Virus record (IMG/VR): IMGVR_UViG_3300027865_000042
Coordinates: 1-25,695 of that record
Direction: 5' to 3' (one strand)
Length of the DNA stretch: 25,695 bases
From: a virus
The notes beneath the pieces were generated by a model. The model was not told the origin of the DNA. It made no database searches and was given only the letters and a program-made list of their open reading frames with translations. Positions within the stretch are counted from its first letter, which is position 1, and each line of letters opens with the position of its first letter. Both the position numbers and the translations under genes were made by a program. Below, in pieces: positions 1,733 through 25,695 of this stretch.

Positions 1733-1950
1733 GCGTTAAATATGCGTTAAATATGCGATGCGCTTCTATTGCGCGTTAAATATGCGATGCGCTTCTATTG
1801 CGCGTTAAATATGCGATGCGTATTTAACGCACAGGCAATGCACGTTAAATGTGCGATGCGCTTCTATTGCGCATTGCTTGTGCGCTAAATGTGCATCGCG
1901 CTTCTATTGCGCTTCTATTGCGCATTGCTTGTGCACTGGTTTAGCGCATT
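1733..1950. repeat. 29-bp direct repeats and inverted repeat in non-coding DNA
   Basis: A 29-bp unit beginning GCGTTAAATATGCGATGCGC and ending TTCTATTGC starts at 1744, 1773 and 1802, the third copy being partial, followed by degenerate copies to about 1950. The 9-mer CTTCTATTG recurs six times. Positions 1802-1811 (GCGTTAAATA) and 1821-1830 (TATTTAACGC) form a perfect 10-bp inverted repeat around TGCGATGCG. No convincing gene lies here. Copies touch one another without spacers, so this is not a CRISPR array. Confidence 0.85.
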
Positions 1951-2040
1951 GTGACATATATTCGTGTATCACACACAATGCACTGCCCATTATCGGAAAA
2001 ACGCCGCTGCGCCGGGCGCTAAGTCATTGAAATATAAGGG

Positions 2041-2369
2041 CGGTCCATTTGTGTCCATTATAGCGTCCATTATATTGCTCTGAAACCGTTGGTATCACTC
2101 ATATTGTCCATTAGTCCATTATATTATTAAAAGCAGGTAATATAATATGATATATATGGTAGTATAGTATATAGTACTATATTACGTGAGGTTATAGGAT
2201 TTTGGACGTAATGGACGCGAGTGTAAATTTTCCTTTTTCTTTTCAAATAGTTACGCCGCGTCCATTAAGCAAAATAATGGACGCATAATGGACACAGGGT
2301 CTAGTACATGGACACAGACCGCAAATAATCGTTAAAAATCAAAGAGTTACAAAATACCTTAATGGACAC
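2041..2369. other. Candidate origin or control region: GTCCATTA site array around an AT-rich core
   Basis: The 8-mer GTCCATTA is exact on the plus strand at 2053, 2065, 2106, 2114 and 2260, and on the minus strand at 2209-2216, 2275-2282, 2286-2293 and 2360-2367. Near copies lie at 2043 and 2306-2313. Left of the core (2122-2200) all copies point one way; right of it all but one point the other way. The core is almost pure A/T and includes the 12-bp palindrome TATAGTACTATA (2170-2181). Iterons plus an AT-rich core are typical of replication origins, but no initiator gene is in the window, so operator or packaging roles remain possible. With the repeats at 1733-1950 it fills the gene-free stretch 1676-2398. 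Confidence 0.55.
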
Positions 2370-2398: not shown

Positions 2399-2752
2399 TT
2401 AAATATGCGTTAAATGTGCGATGCGCTGGAAAATTGCTTTATACGCTGCATAAGCTAGTTCGAGTGTAGCTAGTGCTTCGGATGCGCTATCTATCTCATG
2501 CGTATCTGCATTGTAGTAGCGCACTTTGTAGTGCCTTGGCTGATTGGCGAATATCTCGCTTGTGATGAAATAGTTCCCTCGTAACAGCTCCGATTCGATA
2601 TGCGATTGGAAAAACCCCATTGTGTTGCAATCGAAGAAATGAAACCCTGCGGCTTTGTGGTTGGCTTTTACTTGTGTCATAGTTAACGTATTGCTCACGT
2701 ATTTTTCATTTCCTTGGCTGAGTTCGGTTATTGATGTGTTTTTTGAATGCAT
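2399..2752 (-). CDS. Small phage/plasmid-type protein with FF-TMGFF and YFITSE motifs, 117 aa
   Basis: The ATG at 2752 follows TAAGGAG by six bases. Residues about 35 to 66 contain AGFHFFDCNTMGFFQS and YFITSE. This pattern recurs in small uncharacterised phage and plasmid proteins, which I recognise only by memory of the motif, and function is unknown. The first eight residues, MHSKNTSI, are identical to those of the pentapeptide-repeat protein just upstream, because both genes begin in copies of a 36-bp repeat. The start lies 25 bases inside the upstream gene, so translation is probably coupled. The last residues (RIAHLTHI) and the stop codon are encoded by a copy of the GTTAAATATGCG repeat found at 1733-1950, so the original C-terminus may have been replaced. 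Confidence 0.75.
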   Translation of the reverse strand: MHSKNTSITELSQGNEKYVSNTLTMTQVKANHKAAGFHFFDCNTMGFFQSHIESELLRGNYFITSEIFANQPRHYKVRYYNADTHEIDSASEALATLELAYAAYKAIFQRIAHLTHI

Positions 2753-3663
2753 GGAGAACTCCTTAGCAGATTAGCGCCTCGCAGGTCTGCGCCTCGCAGG
2801 TCGGCATAACCCAGTTTAGCATCTTTCAATTGCGCATCTTTCAGGTTTGCGCCTAGCAGATTAGCGCCTCGCAGGTCTGCGCGCTCCAGGTCGGCGCATT
2901 CCAGGCGAGCACCTTTTAGGTTGGCATCTCTCAGGTCGGCGCCTTTCAGGTTACTCCATAGCAGATTAGCGCCTTTCAGGTTAGCATATTCAAAGTCAGC
3001 ATTTTCCAGGTTAGCGCATTCCAGGTCAGCGCCTTCAAGGTTAGCGCCTTTCAGGTTTGCGCCTTTCAAGTTAGCAGCCTCCAGGTCAGCGCGCTCCAGG
3101 TCGGCGCATTCCAGGCGAGCACCTTTTAGGTTGGCATCTCTCAGGTCGGCGCCTTTCAGGTTAGCGCCTTTCAGGTCGGCGCATTCCAGGCGAGCACCTT
3201 TTAGGTTGGCATCTCTCAGGTCGGCGCCTTTCAGGTCGGCGCCTTTCAGGTCGGCGCCTTTCAGGTCGGCGCCTTTCAGGTTAGCGCCTTTCAGGTTAGC
3301 GCATTTCAGGTTAACGCCTTTCAGGTTAGCACCTTTTAGGTTAGCACCTTTTAGGTTAGCACCTTTCAAGGTAGCGGCTTCCAGGACCGCATCTTTCAAG
3401 GTAGCGGCTTCCAGATCAGCGCGCTCCAGGTCGGCGCATTCCAGGTCAGCATATTCAAAGTCGGCGCCTTTCAGGTCGGCGCCTTTCAGGTCGGCGCCTT
3501 TCAGGTTAGCGCCTTTCAGGTTAGCGCCTTTCAGGTTAGCGCCTTTCAGGTTAGCGCCTTTCAGGTTAACGCCTTTCAGGTCAGCATATTCAAAGTCAGC
3601 ATATTCAAAGTCAGCATATTCAAAGTCAGCATCTTCCAGGATTGATGTGTTTTTTGAATGCAT
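2728..3663 (-). CDS. Pentapeptide-repeat protein, 311 aa
   Basis: The ATG at 3663 follows TAAGGAG by six bases. After an 11-residue leader ([11 protein letters not shown]) come about 58 uninterrupted pentapeptides of the A(D/N)LKG type, with variants [15 protein letters not shown] and ADLRD. The C-terminal tail [10 protein letters not shown] is out-of-frame read-through of the next gene's start region. The pentapeptide family folds as a right-handed quadrilateral beta-helix with four repeats per turn, so about 14 turns are expected. Some members mimic DNA and bind gyrase (Qnr, MfpA), but most are uncharacterised. Nothing here identifies a target: the repeats are unusually uniform and no dimerisation domain is seen. 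The opposite strand is also open, only because of the repeat composition. Confidence 0.92.
2730..2765 (-). repeat. 36-bp direct repeat, copy 1 (RBS and start of the 117-aa gene)
   Basis: Identical over 36 bp to 3641-3676. Read leftward it contains TAAGGAG, the ATG and the MHSKNTSI codons of the 117-aa gene, and in another frame the end of the pentapeptide protein. Confidence 0.95.
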
Positions 3664-6299: not shown

Positions 6300-7396
6300 T
6301 GGCAGAGCCGGTTACTATTTACGGGAGTCGGTCACTTGACGGTGACTTGGATGCAAAAGGATATGATATTCTTGACGTAAACGATATCGCTGTTGATACG
6401 ATATCGAGTGCTGACGGAACTTCAGTACATGTTCTTTTAGGTTCTGATGCCGGAGACGACTTCATAGTTAATACGGATAAATTTGTCGTTGAAGGGGATA
6501 CAGGTCGTATCGGTATCGGCATACTGACTCCTGGCGTGGATTTGGATTTACTTGGGGTCCATGTCAGTGGTGTCGGCATTGCTCGATTTAAAGGAAGTGC
6601 GAACGCAGGGTTTATGACACTTGATACTACGACTGAGGCAAACGGCGAATCTGGTTTTCTTCTTGCTACTGGTGGAGTATTGACCGGGCAAATCGGCGTT
6701 GTGGAAACGCAAGGCGCTGTATATATACGCAATCGTCTATTTTCGTCAACTGTAAATTCCATAGTGTGCGATAATGCTGGGGATGTAGATCTTCGGGGTC
6801 ACGTGAATATAGGGCGTGGCGACGCAGATATCGATTATTCGCTGACATTCGACGGTGAAAATAGCAATGGTATAATCACATGGAAAGAAGATGAAGATTA
6901 TTTTGAGTTTGCAGACGCTGTGATTTTCGCCGGTGAGGGCTCAGGTTTAGCTTTCGGCGGCATTTCGGTAAAAGATAATGGTGTAGCCACAGCATTCGGT
7001 GGCACCGGCATCGCGAATAAGACACAAGTGCTTATTTTTGGTGTAGACGATCCGAGCAACAACACTACACCTGCCCATGGAACTGACGACATTACCATTA
7101 CAGTTGCAGGTAAGTATTTTGCATGTGTGACTATTTCGGCTACAACGGCGGAGGGCGGTTCGGATGAATACGGATTTAGTTTGTGGAAAAATAACGGGGA
7201 TACGGAGTTTACTAATGTCCACGCACATAGAGTATTTGGTGGTGGCGCGGGGGATGCAGGTGCTATCGCACTAAGTGGTATTGTGGATTTGGCTGTTAAT
7301 GACACTATAGAAGTGTGGGCCTGGAATGAAGATGATACCGAATCGATAGTTATTGATGATATCACTCTTTCTTTATTCATGCTCGGAGGAACATGA
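6299..7396 (+). CDS. Fibre-like virion protein with C-terminal C1q/TNF-like domain, 365 aa
   Basis: The ATG at 6299 overlaps the previous stop and has GGGGAG six bases upstream; the frame extends further but inside the preceding gene. Residues 67-79 (DTGRIGIGILTPG) match the GRIGIG-TP motif seen in many phage fibres and in beta-solenoid surface proteins. From about residue 240 the pattern ITVAGKYFACVTISATTAEG and the ending ITLSLFMLGG resemble C1q/TNF-like jelly-roll domains, which usually trimerise and bind ligands. A fibre or head-decoration role is inferred. Its position upstream of the large terminase, far from the tail genes, is unusual. The stop overlaps the terminase start (ATGA). Confidence 0.65.
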   Translation: MAEPVTIYGSRSLDGDLDAKGYDILDVNDIAVDTISSADGTSVHVLLGSDAGDDFIVNTDKFVVEGDTGRIGIGILTPGVDLDLLGVHVSGVGIARFKGSANAGFMTLDTTTEANGESGFLLATGGVLTGQIGVVETQGAVYIRNRLFSSTVNSIVCDNAGDVDLRGHVNIGRGDADIDYSLTFDGENSNGIITWKEDEDYFEFADAVIFAGEGSGLAFGGISVKDNGVATAFGGTGIANKTQVLIFGVDDPSNNTTPAHGTDDITITVAGKYFACVTISATTAEGGSDEYGFSLWKNNGDTEFTNVHAHRVFGGGAGDAGAIALSGIVDLAVNDTIEVWAWNEDDTESIVIDDITLSLFMLGGT

Positions 7397-8895
7397 TAGA
7401 TAGTCAAGAGACAGCAGCCTTAAAAGATAAAAAGGGTATGTTGGAAGAACTCGACTCTTTAAAAAAGAAAAAGGCGTCCCTTTTATATCAAATAGAGGAT
7501 TATCAGAAAAATAATGGTAGTGAGTTTTTTGAGCCTCTAACATACCAGCAGCAACTTATTGACCTTATGTGGCTAGGTAAAACAAGATTGTTACTGCAAG
7601 GTTCGAATCAAATCGGTAAAACTATGGTCGGTGCGGCGTTAGTGGATTCCTGGTGTAGAGGTGTGCAGGCATGGGACAATCGCACCAGTATATTCAATGG
7701 TGCGCCGACTAAAGGACGTATTATATGCACTGACTGGCCTCACCATGCAGCGAAGGTAATTGTGCCGAAATTGCAGGAGATTATACCGAAAGGATCGTAT
7801 ACCACTAAAAAAAATAATCATGGGGTCGATTCGGACTGGCTATTCCCTAACGGATCTACGTTTCAACTTATGACTATTAAGCAAGATACTCAAAGTCATG
7901 AATCAGATACATTGCATTGGGTATGGTCCGACGAACCGTTGCCTATAGAGAAATATGGAGCCAATTGCCGCGGTCTTGTACGCAATAGCGGCGTGTATTT
8001 GTTGACGTTAACAGCGGTAGGCAAGGAATCCTGGATGCTTGACAAAATCGCTATGAATACAGGCAAGAATTACGGGTGTGTAACCCGTGTGCCTATGCGA
8101 GCGAACACACATCTTACTGAAGAAGCTATAATTCAGTTTGAAAAGGATCTTCCGGACAGTGAGATTCCTGCCAGGGTATACGGCGAATGGCTGCAATTAA
8201 CCGGCATGGTTATTAAGCAATTCGATAGCGCTATTCATGTAGTCGAGCCATTTGAGGTCCCTCTTACCTGGCCGGTAGTTCCGTTTATTGATATTCATTT
8301 AAATAAACCTCAGGCAATATCTTTTTATGCTTGGGACCCTTACCAGCGAGAATATCAAATTGATGAAATATGGGATAATCTTTCGCCGGAAGAAATTGCC
8401 CATGCTATTTTAAAAAAAAGACGCGATAATGGCTGGAATATTGTCGAGTGCGGCATAGATCCTCTTGCGAAAGGAGATTCTGCTTATTTGAAAAATCGGT
8501 ATGGAGATGTATCCGACACCTTTACTATAATAGCGGATATTTTAAGCCCCCAAGGCATTGAATTATTCGCTGCCAGCAAAGACAAAGATTCTGGTATTCG
8601 CAATATTGAAATGCTGTTGAAAGGCATTAATAAGATGCCTTCTTTATATTTCTTTGACGGGCGTACAGAACAATCTTTATGGCAGCTTCAGCGGTGGATA
8701 TATGACGATGTCGGCATACCGTTGAAAAAAGATGACCATTTTCCTGAAAATTTATATCGCAGTACGTTGTTAGATAGCGGCTCAAAAACACAAAAAGTAA
8801 TTGCAGTGCCTGGGCACTTGAATCCTGATATTGATTTTGCAGATTTTGTTGACGCAACCATGCCGCGAGGCGGCCAAGGATCTTATATGGGGTAG
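7393..8895 (+). CDS. terL: Terminase large subunit
   Basis: This is the DNA-packaging motor: an N-terminal ATPase translocates DNA into the prohead and a C-terminal RNase H-like nuclease cuts it. Residues 70-77 (GSNQIGKT) are the Walker A loop; 174-181 (LHWVWSDE) are Walker B with the catalytic acidic pair; 203-210 (LLTLTAVG) fit the coupling motif. RVYGEWLQLTGMVIKQFD (261-278) is the usual junction to the nuclease. Asp300 (PFID) and Asp356 (CGIDPLAKGDS) are probable metal ligands. The first 45 residues form a lysine-rich coiled coil. At 500 aa the length is normal. GGAGGA precedes the ATG, and the portal gene begins two bases after the stop. Confidence 0.95.
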   Translation: MIDSQETAALKDKKGMLEELDSLKKKKASLLYQIEDYQKNNGSEFFEPLTYQQQLIDLMWLGKTRLLLQGSNQIGKTMVGAALVDSWCRGVQAWDNRTSIFNGAPTKGRIICTDWPHHAAKVIVPKLQEIIPKGSYTTKKNNHGVDSDWLFPNGSTFQLMTIKQDTQSHESDTLHWVWSDEPLPIEKYGANCRGLVRNSGVYLLTLTAVGKESWMLDKIAMNTGKNYGCVTRVPMRANTHLTEEAIIQFEKDLPDSEIPARVYGEWLQLTGMVIKQFDSAIHVVEPFEVPLTWPVVPFIDIHLNKPQAISFYAWDPYQREYQIDEIWDNLSPEEIAHAILKKRRDNGWNIVECGIDPLAKGDSAYLKNRYGDVSDTFTIIADILSPQGIELFAASKDKDSGIRNIEMLLKGINKMPSLYFFDGRTEQSLWQLQRWIYDDVGIPLKKDDHFPENLYRSTLLDSGSKTQKVIAVPGHLNPDIDFADFVDATMPRGGQGSYMG

Positions 8896-8896
8896 T

Positions 8897-10627
8897 ATGG
8901 CAAGGAATCAAAATAAAGAAGAGTTTTTTGAGCTAATGCGGAAACGATTTCAAGAGGCGGAAACAGCGGAAAATGAGAATCGTATTGCGGCGATGGATGA
9001 TTTAAGATTCATCCATAACTATGAGAATGCTCAATGGCCTGTTGCAGATCAGGCAAGCCGCCAGGCCGACAGAAGGCCTATGCTGACTCATAACTTATTA
9101 CGCAAATTTTTGCGCTCGATGCTGGGAGCTATGCAACAGACTAAACCTGGGATTGTTGTTAAACCGGTCGATAGCGAGGATGACCTAATTACTGCGGAGA
9201 TTTATACCGATTTAATTCGCCAGATAGAAAAAGATATTGAATCGCCTGCTGAACAGGCATATAATAAAGCGTATGAAGGAGCTGTGGGCAATGCTTTTGG
9301 TTATATAAGAGTAGTGGCCGGATTCGTTGACGATACGGGATTTGATCAAAAAATACAAATTCGAAGGGTGGAAAATCCTTGGACTGTGCTTATGGACCCT
9401 GGGCGCAGTACTTTTTTAGGTACAGACCAAAATTATTGTTTTATCAGCAGCACAATGGATCGCGACGCATTTCATGAAAAATATCCTCGTGCTAGCCCTG
9501 GCGACGATTGGCAGACTATGGGGGACACGTTTGAAAAATGGTATGGGGAGGATACTGTACGAATAACTGAGTATTTCTGGGCAGTTCCGGTTACCAAAAC
9601 TATAGCTATGCTAGAAGACTTGTCAGTGATCGAACTAACAAATGTGATTACTCCCCGCGTGATAGAAGAGTCCGGGCATCGGATCGTACGTACTCGCACA
9701 GTACAGACTAAACGATATATGTGGGCAAAAGTATCAGGCCAGGATATATTAGAACCTGTGCGCCCGTGGCCAGGTAAGTATATACCAATTATACCGGTAT
9801 TCGGCGACGAAGTGAATATTGAAGGAAAGCGGGTTTTATTTTCCTTTTTCCGGGATGCGAAAGATCCGCAACAGATGTATAATTTTTGGCTGAGTGCAGC
9901 TACTGAGATAGTTGCACTATCCCCGAAAACACCGTATATAGGCACAGCCCAGCATTTCAAAGGTTTTGAAAGCTTATGGCAAAATTCAAATATTAAAAAT
10001 TATGCGTACTTACCGTATAATGCAGATAAAAATACAAAAATACCGCCTACCAGACAAAATGTATCTCAGGTGCCTAGCGGACATATCACTATGATGGGTA
10101 TTGCACAAGCCAATATTATGAATACTCAGGGGCAATACGAGGCATCTTTAGGTGAGCAAGGGAACGAACGGTCTGGAAAAGCGATATATGCTCGGCAAGA
10201 TGCGTCAGCCAGAGTGACTTTTTCTTATCTAAACAATTTTCACCAATCGTTATTGCTTGTAGGACATATTTTGACAGACCTTATTCCTCACATATACGAT
10301 ACAAATCGTATAGTGCGCCTACGCGGTCCGGAAGATGCTATGAGATTTTTCGAAGTTAACACCCCTTATTTTGACCCAGTTACAGGAACTGCTAAAATAG
10401 CTCATGATTTGTCACAAGGAAACTTCGATACCGAATTGGATATTAGCCCGGCACAGACCTCGCGTCGCGAAAGAGCTGTTAGAGATATGATCGAGATGGT
10501 TCAATATATACCCGATGCCGGGCCGCTAATCGCCGATCTAATTGTAAAAAATATGGATTTCCCAGGCGCACAGGAAATTGCGGATCGCCTGAAATCGGCT
10601 TCTCAACAACCACAACCGCCTCAATAA
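8897..10627 (+). CDS. Portal protein, P22-type
   Basis: The portal forms the twelve-subunit ring at the unique capsid vertex through which DNA enters and leaves. The sequence (576 aa) shows an acidic helical N-terminus, DLRFIHNYENAQWP, then MLTHNLLRKFLRSMLGAMQQ, VENPWTVLMDP and STMDRDAFHEKYP, as in the P22-like portal family. The C-terminal helical part (NERSGKAIYARQDASARVTF, then the LLVGHILTDLIPHIYDTNRI segment) matches the crown/stem helices. P22's portal is 725 residues; the C-terminal barrel extension appears absent here. The ATG at 8897 is preceded by GGGG and sits two bases after the terminase stop; an earlier in-frame ATG lies inside the terminase gene and is unlikely. Confidence 0.93.
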   Translation: MARNQNKEEFFELMRKRFQEAETAENENRIAAMDDLRFIHNYENAQWPVADQASRQADRRPMLTHNLLRKFLRSMLGAMQQTKPGIVVKPVDSEDDLITAEIYTDLIRQIEKDIESPAEQAYNKAYEGAVGNAFGYIRVVAGFVDDTGFDQKIQIRRVENPWTVLMDPGRSTFLGTDQNYCFISSTMDRDAFHEKYPRASPGDDWQTMGDTFEKWYGEDTVRITEYFWAVPVTKTIAMLEDLSVIELTNVITPRVIEESGHRIVRTRTVQTKRYMWAKVSGQDILEPVRPWPGKYIPIIPVFGDEVNIEGKRVLFSFFRDAKDPQQMYNFWLSAATEIVALSPKTPYIGTAQHFKGFESLWQNSNIKNYAYLPYNADKNTKIPPTRQNVSQVPSGHITMMGIAQANIMNTQGQYEASLGEQGNERSGKAIYARQDASARVTFSYLNNFHQSLLLVGHILTDLIPHIYDTNRIVRLRGPEDAMRFFEVNTPYFDPVTGTAKIAHDLSQGNFDTELDISPAQTSRRERAVRDMIEMVQYIPDAGPLIADLIVKNMDFPGAQEIADRLKSASQQPQPPQ

Positions 10628-11754: not shown

Positions 11755-12942
11755 ATGCCAAATTCATTATTGACCCCTACAATCATAGCGCGTTATGCGT
11801 TATTTCATTTAACTAACAACCTTGTAATGGCCCGGCTTGTATATCGAGACTATGAGCAGGAATTTAAGAAAATCGGTGGTAGTCTGACTATTCGCCAGCC
11901 GGTAAAGTTTTCTGTTTCCGATGGAGCCACTCGTACAAATCAGGATGTTACCGAGAATAGCGACACGTTTACTGTAGCTACTCGACGGCATGTATCTTGG
12001 CTATTTTCTACGGAAGACCTGACTATGACAATAGAGCGTTATACGCAGAGGTACATCAGACCGGCTATGATAGCTTTGGCTAATGATGTGGACTCGGAAT
12101 TATTGGGTCTGTATAAGGACGTGTACAATGTCCGGGGAACGCCGGGAACAACGCCAGCGTCTTTCCTTGCTTTAGCCAATTGTGGTGAACGCCTGGAGGA
12201 AGAAGCCTGTCCGCAAGATAGGCGAAATGGCGTGCTGAATCCCGCAGCGAATTGGGCTATGGCTGATGCATTAAAGGGCACATTTTACAAAACTCTTGCA
12301 CATGATACTGTGCGCAAAGGGTTTTTAGGACGTGTTGCTAATATTGGCCTTAACATGGACCAAAACGTTAACAGGCACACTACCGGAACGTTTACTACAG
12401 GGAGTACACCGTTGGTCAATGGCGCTTCTCAAACAGGCGCTAGTTTGATAACTAATGGCTGGGCCGCTGCCACAGCTGTCATCAAACAAGGAGACGTATT
12501 CACGATTGCAGGTGTAAATGCGGTTAACCCTGTTACTGGTGACGATCTAGGTTATTTACGCCAATTCGTAGCCACTGCGGATGGCTCCAGTGATGGCTCA
12601 GGAAATCTGACCATCTCGGTTTCGCCAAGCATTACCGCCACAACCGCCTATAAAACGGTTACTGCCAGTCCAGGCGACAACGCTGTGATCACCATGGTAG
12701 GCACCGAAGCTACTGCGTATCCGCAGAACTTAGTGTTTCATCCGGAAGCTTTTGGATTGGTGATGGCTCCATTAGCTTTGCCGAAAGGAGCTGTGTTCAA
12801 AGCTCGCGCCACTTATCAGGGTATATCTGTTCGAATCATCAATTATTACGATGGTACGAACGATAATGATGTTATACGGTGTGATATTCTTTTTGGTACG
12901 AAAACACTGAGGCCGGAACTCGCTTGTAGACTTGTTGGATAG
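11755..12942 (+). CDS. Major capsid protein, P22 coat-like
   Basis: At 395 aa this is the shell protein, with the P22 coat-family pattern: N-terminal MPNSLLTPTIIARYALFHLT, then GGSLTIRQPVKFSVSDGA, then the spine-helix region NDVDSELLGLYKDVYNVRG, and a C-terminal EAFGLVMAPLALPKGAVF beta segment. These match the HK97-fold coat proteins of the P22 group. Residues about 195-310 (from HTTGTFTTGS to TEATAYPQ) are an inserted, threonine-rich beta domain, as in P22's I-domain. AAGG precedes the ATG. The gene is followed by a promoter and hairpin that separate it from the next structural gene. Confidence 0.93.
   Translation: MPNSLLTPTIIARYALFHLTNNLVMARLVYRDYEQEFKKIGGSLTIRQPVKFSVSDGATRTNQDVTENSDTFTVATRRHVSWLFSTEDLTMTIERYTQRYIRPAMIALANDVDSELLGLYKDVYNVRGTPGTTPASFLALANCGERLEEEACPQDRRNGVLNPAANWAMADALKGTFYKTLAHDTVRKGFLGRVANIGLNMDQNVNRHTTGTFTTGSTPLVNGASQTGASLITNGWAAATAVIKQGDVFTIAGVNAVNPVTGDDLGYLRQFVATADGSSDGSGNLTISVSPSITATTAYKTVTASPGDNAVITMVGTEATAYPQNLVFHPEAFGLVMAPLALPKGAVFKARATYQGISVRIINYYDGTNDNDVIRCDILFGTKTLRPELACRLVG

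Positions 12943-20120: not shown

Positions 20121-21104
<984 letters not shown>

Positions 21105-25160: not shown

Positions 25161-25695
<535 letters not shown>

Follow-up and report, generated by a model that had tools for sequence, protein, structure and literature searches.

What is the function of a short, gene-free region in which many copies of one octamer surround an AT-rich segment? The origins of most environmental phages are unknown. The DNA analyzed (the window) comprises 25,695 bp, positions 1 to 25,695 of the virus record IMGVR_UViG_3300027865_000042. This record is an unclosed contig, and its terminase, portal, and coat protein genes (Table 1) identify it as a fragment of a P22-like tailed phage. 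The array of sites is located 6.5 kb upstream of the portal gene. A previous sequence-only reading had interpreted it as an iteron origin or a multi-site operator. We estimate a probability of about 0.7 that the array is the replication origin of this phage, or an essential initiator-binding part of it.

The nine exact and two near copies of GTCCATTA that had been counted in about 330 bp were confirmed (2043–2367). The exact copies all lie within 2053–2367 and occur nowhere else in the window, in which 0.76 copies are expected by chance. The region was also correctly described as free of genes, because only unsupported ORFs of less than 60 aa are present between the flanking ORFs. The clustering far exceeds chance. 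The maximum number of copies of any 8-mer per 330 bp was 4 in 200 dinucleotide shuffles of the non-repetitive DNA of the window, and the largest 8-mer cluster was 4 when positions 1961–2400 alone were shuffled 2000 times. With a weight matrix, the nine sites scored 14.5–19.8, the best score outside the array in the whole window was 13.3, and no comparable site cluster was detected elsewhere in the window. When aligned on the minus strand, the extended site reads TAATGGAC[AG]C; the flanks beyond the 8-mer are variable, except for a C at the second base past it.

The sites are irregularly spaced (8–95 bp) and are present in both orientations. The exact copies left of the AT-rich core all point the same way (4 plus, 0 minus), and those on the right are mostly reversed (1 plus, 4 minus; Fisher p = 0.048, or p = 0.015 when the near copies are included), as had been claimed. 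Because of these p values, the mirror orientation is modest evidence when taken alone. The single plus-strand copy in the right set is located at 2260.

Table 1. Coordinates of the site array, adjacent elements, and genes of the window.
Feature	Position	Strand	Remark
Exact GTCCATTA, plus strand	2053, 2065, 2106, 2114, 2260	+	
Exact GTCCATTA, minus strand	2209, 2275, 2286, 2360	-	
Near copy GTCCATTT	2043–2050	+	
Near copy ACATGGAC	2306–2313	-	
Weaker site TTTTGGAC	2200–2207	-	
Left site set: GTCCATTT 2043 (near) and GTCCATTA 2053, 2065, 2106, 2114	2043–2121	+	
Right site set: TTTTGGAC 2200 (weak), TAATGGAC 2209, 2275, 2286, 2360, and ACATGGAC 2306 (near)	2200–2367	-	
Inverted site pair GCGTCCATTAAGCAAAATAATGGACGC inside the right set	2258–2284		Direct reading
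AT-rich core, 77% A+T	2122–2199		Candidate unwinding element
Second repeat array, 29-bp unit GCGTTAAATATGCGATGCGCTTCTATTGC, unrelated to the sites	1733–1960		Strongly structured
ORF, 139 aa	1236–1655	-	No family match
ORF, DUF7447 family (PF24239; phrog_4655)	2399–2752	-	Not a replicase; stop codon abuts the array
Terminase large subunit	7393–8895	+	Identifies the phage
P22-like portal	8831–10627	+	Identifies the phage
P22-like coat protein	11755–12942	+	Identifies the phage

The AT-rich core that had been noted between the two site sets is real, and it overlaps the 80 bp with the lowest stability in the window, which start at 2101. A second array, built of a 29-bp unit, precedes the sites, and the same repeats are partly present on their right (2395–2420); therefore, this family lies on both sides of the site array. 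It folds strongly as single-stranded DNA and may serve as an accessory element of the origin, or it may be a mobile repeat. An Rfam search gave no match.

The site array itself might be a product of local duplication with no conserved function, since the window is rich in several kinds of repeats and no close relative was found to carry the motif. However, the sites are exact over 8 bp while their flanks and spacing vary, and duplication would have carried the flanks along. Moreover, the sites are placed in both orientations around the least stable DNA. We regard such an origin of the array as exceedingly improbable.

The nucleotide skew is compatible with a replication start at this position. 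The cumulative GC skew of the contig has its minimum at 1668 and is nearly flat to 4200, but it is confounded by gene direction and repeats. The G-C skew at third codon positions, measured on the plus strand, is negative in the gene at 1236–1655, left of the array, and positive on the right, both in two leftward genes and in the adjacent rightward genes. The sign change at the array fits a bidirectional start independently of gene direction. It is only suggestive, given the small numbers, the repetitive nature of the pentapeptide gene, and the near absence of third-position skew from the left repeat gene.

We compared the array with those of other phages by a criterion that is blind to genes: any 7-mer with at least 8 copies in 400 bp, on both strands and with irregular spacing. 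The window passes this criterion with ten copies of AATGGAC in non-coding DNA (2043–2367). Among the loci selected for a PrimPol-RepA replicase, 8 of 11 passed, and only 2 of 86 loci (1.06 Mb) selected for a P22-like portal and none of six other phage records did so. All ten arrays are located at the 3' end of a PrimPol-RepA-type replicase gene, where they either overlap the stop codon or begin within about 20 bp of it; the two from the portal-selected loci (L137 and L169) lie at the replicase stop codon. This tight association of arrays with replicase genes in other phages is directly observed. In a slightly different scan, the array of another portal-selected locus (L128) was found 14 bp past the replicase stop. 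A separate blind scan for 8-mer clusters picked the window array, the origin octamers of P4, and the array of L033, a P22-like relative in which the sites are located at the end of a PrimPol + AAA_25 replicase gene. Phages picked solely by homology to the L033 replicase mostly carry an array at the replicase 3' end, with different motifs: CGTGACA (Rhizobium phage 16-3 and RHph_X2_25), GTATAAA, CTACAAA, TGGGACA, and CGGTACA. The right halves of the motifs are alike (CCGGACA, TGGGACA, CGGGACA, and ATGGACA; ATGGAC[AG] in the window).

Arrays were lacking in L052 and L054 among the 11 replicase-selected phages, with L053 being ambiguous, and in L166 and L112 among the portal relatives with a replicase match. 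The association is therefore strong but not universal. At the class level it may already have been described; our literature search covered open-licence papers.

The distance from the array to the start of the portal gene is 6.3 kb in L033, 3.6 kb in L051, 6.4 kb in L128, 6.3 kb in L137, 3.8 kb in L169, and 3.2 kb in L175, compared with 6.5 kb in the window. In L175, which is also P22-like, a mirrored TTGCCTACA array (2700–3060) surrounds an AT-rich segment just upstream of TerS/TerL, and its 8.5-kb contig contains no replicase, as in the window. L175 is a close architectural match to the window. A centromere-like partition site (parC/tubC type) of a plasmid prophage was also considered, as sites of the parC type sometimes consist of a promoter flanked by two clusters of short repeats. 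However, no partition gene was recognized among the proteins examined near the array, and in relatives the arrays at the syntenic position go together with replicase genes, leaving this function very improbable.

A second search, again blind to genes, was made for mixed TGTCCAT arrays. They were found directly 3' of replicases with a VapE domain (L077, L079, L088, L089, and L091) and of AAA_25/PrimPol replicases (L094 and L084). In L077, L079, L088, and L089, the sites flank a segment of 67–76% A+T, on the same plan as in the window. In L085, the array is located beside a run of DnaA boxes, and a VapE gene is 2.3 kb away. In three further phages (L093, L087, and the phage of L076/L082), the array of TGTCCAT sites is next to a Phage_integrase gene. 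These cases speak against an origin, and because of them integrase arm sites are the best-documented alternative: the array would be an attP, in which arm-type binding sites of a phage integrase likewise flank a crossover core on both sides. However, the contig has no match to Phage_integrase, the flanking ORFs are not integrases, and ARAGORN detected no tRNA gene in the window. In addition, a typical attP carries fewer than the eleven sites found here. An attP is thus quite unlikely, although arm sites are, together with a multi-site operator, one of the two main rivals of the origin reading.

In the case of an operator, a regulator bound to the sites would control a promoter in the AT-rich core or the leftward genes. 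On the minus strand, hexamers that resemble a promoter overlap with the left sites. In several Acidobacteriaceae, TAATGGAC sites make up a three-site operator-like element ahead of an AbiEi-like/AbiEii-like gene pair; therefore, the motif alone is no proof of an origin. However, the Acidobacteriaceae elements have 3–4 sites in about 60 bp, compared with 11 in 330 bp here, and the closest gene in the leftward direction begins about 390 bp from the sites, with another repeat array in between. Large arrays are almost absent from the 86 related phage loci, except beside replicases. An operator is therefore unlikely. In the Acidobacteriaceae (L061, L063, L064, L065, L066, L070, and L071), repeated GTCCATTAGTAATGGACATGGCATAATAATGGACGC-like elements lie by the gene pair and are probably its operator. 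The names of the pair, which was read in L063, come from reading the sequences and not from a family search.

Judging from these sequence comparisons, a replication origin is the best-supported reading, favored over its rivals by how many sites there are, by the core, and by the position. The array–replicase comparison, including the relatives with P22-like portals, supports the first half well of the earlier interpretation, but "iteron origin" in the strict sense does not apply because the spacing is irregular and both orientations occur. Classical iteron origins (Rep_3 type) have regular direct repeats of about 20 bp. An origin based on DnaA boxes does not fit, as the window contains no TTATNCACA box.

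The layout is nearer to those of P4 ori/crr and of the PICI/SaPI origins. In the latter, two sets of short repeats surround an AT-rich region in non-coding DNA, a layout described as common to PICIs and as present in no other known bacterial replicon (PMC6092414, PMC7581432). The window has both the two short-repeat sets and the AT-rich (melting) region between them. In the PICI/SaPI class, replication is driven by an initiator that attaches to the repeats; an initiator acting on the window array would have to be encoded outside the contig. However, the PICI/SaPI origin is located immediately 3' of the initiator gene, whereas the ORFs adjacent to the window array are not replicases and the contig is a fragment. 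Furthermore, the PICI/SaPI elements are satellites, while the window derives from a P22-like tailed phage with a different motif and one reversed copy in the right set. Because the layout agrees and the adjacency to a replicase gene does not, we liken the array to the PICI/SaPI class, in whose manner it may work, and do not place it in the class.

The ori/crr of P4 (NC_001609) resembles the array in its octamer sites (type I repeats) of mixed orientation and irregular spacing. The P4 ori has 6 octamers in about 104 bp, which is below the 8 copies of the gene-blind criterion. P4 has the motif GGTGAACA in two separate elements (ori and crr), whereas the window has more sites, of GTCCATTA, around one core; no alpha-like gene was recognized in the contig, which leaves the array outside the P4 type.

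The arrays of the PrimPol-RepA/VapE set (L033, L046–L051, L055, L137, L169, L077, L079, L088, and L089) share with the window short non-palindromic sites in both orientations and a right half of the GGAC/ACA type. The P22-like members also share the range of distances upstream of the portal, and the VapE arrays share the AT-rich segment between the site sets. However, these arrays stand beside their own replicase genes, whereas the window array has no replicase within 25.7 kb of an incomplete genome, and the tandem spacing of the PrimPol-RepA arrays is tighter (9–10 bp).

In the pRN1 minimal replicon, an origin element is located directly 3' of the PrimPol-helicase gene (PMC4234260). pRN1 uses a 100-nt stem-loop, whereas the window core folds weakly (z = −1.63); a pRN1-like stem-loop in the core was therefore rejected. 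The PrimPol of NrS-1 recognizes an 8-nt priming site, TTTGGTTA, for which a role in setting the replication start has been proposed (PMC8718748), and its likeness to the window lies in the 8-nt recognition sequence.

On the origin reading, the initiator would be encoded by the phage and would most likely be a primase-helicase replicase of the PrimPol-RepA or VapE/P4-alpha type, whose gene would lie in the missing part of the genome. It would bind the TAATGGAC[AG]C sites to the left and right of the core and assemble on them, possibly in the form of two opposed oligomers, and would then melt the AT-rich core, from which bidirectional replication could begin. Because the replicase is missing from the contig, we infer the type of the initiator, and the array stands apart from an initiator gene; this position counts against an origin, as do the flanking genes with no replication annotation, a spacing looser than that of the PrimPol-RepA arrays, and the failure of the searches to find a close relative with the same motif. 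The initiator gene for which the sequence-only reading had advised a search is absent from the incomplete contig, in which no replicase was recognized (no VapE, Prim-Pol domain, or alpha-like gene). The only AAA_25 signal in the contig is a sub-threshold match within the terminase. As the contig contains no integrase, VapE, or Prim-Pol domain, the replication module appears to sit in the missing part.

We tentatively suggest, at somewhat less than even odds, that tailed phages with fused primase-helicase replicases (PrimPol-RepA and VapE) share one origin design and that this P22-like phage has an origin of that design separated from its replicase. The 3' end of the replicase gene would carry short sites that are one-sided and occur in both orientations; their left half would evolve fast, their right half would be of the GGAC/ACA type, and they would often surround an AT-rich core. 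If so, the layout regarded as private to the PICI satellites would be general in phages, which bears on where the satellites obtained their replicons. If arrays of this kind can be found blindly and linked to the type of replicase, sequence alone could suffice to predict the origins of thousands of uncultured phages.

Genes of the contig run leftward left of 3.7 kb, and the structural genes run rightward. The best portal relatives in the viral collections searched are about 40% identical. The 139-aa ORF left of the array has no homologue in phage records. AlphaFold models of two flanking or nearby proteins, made without an alignment, had pLDDT values of 39 and 63 and were too poor for use. The DUF7447 protein and the neighboring pentapeptide-repeat protein (2399–3663, minus strand) share their first residues, MHSKNTSI, as if the 5' end had been duplicated. 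At the left end of the contig (1–705), a 27-bp repeat occurs 26 times in a minus-strand reading frame (SSQVGEMRD-like repeats). The right end (25588–25695) consists of GCAGGA repeated 18 times, and CGG repeated 26 times codes for poly-glycine at 20165–20242. Repeats probably interrupted the assembly.

No close relative with the motif was found in the viral collections by searches with TerL, the HTH protein, the DUF7447 protein, or motif patterns; none of the three proteins led to a useful relative. Triple occurrences of GTCCATTA in IMG/VR were mostly coding repeats, and the exact mixed site pattern had no occurrence there. Matches to the mixed pattern in GTDB genomes were chance matches and operators, and plasmid records gave no match. 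L017 has a noncoding array upstream of terS and was set aside, as this phage has a DnaB-type primase-helicase. In L025, ten tandem 29-bp units with TAATGGAC are present at 6518–6787, at the end of a 38.5-kb virus contig, and the opposite end of this contig encodes a Prim-Pol protein.
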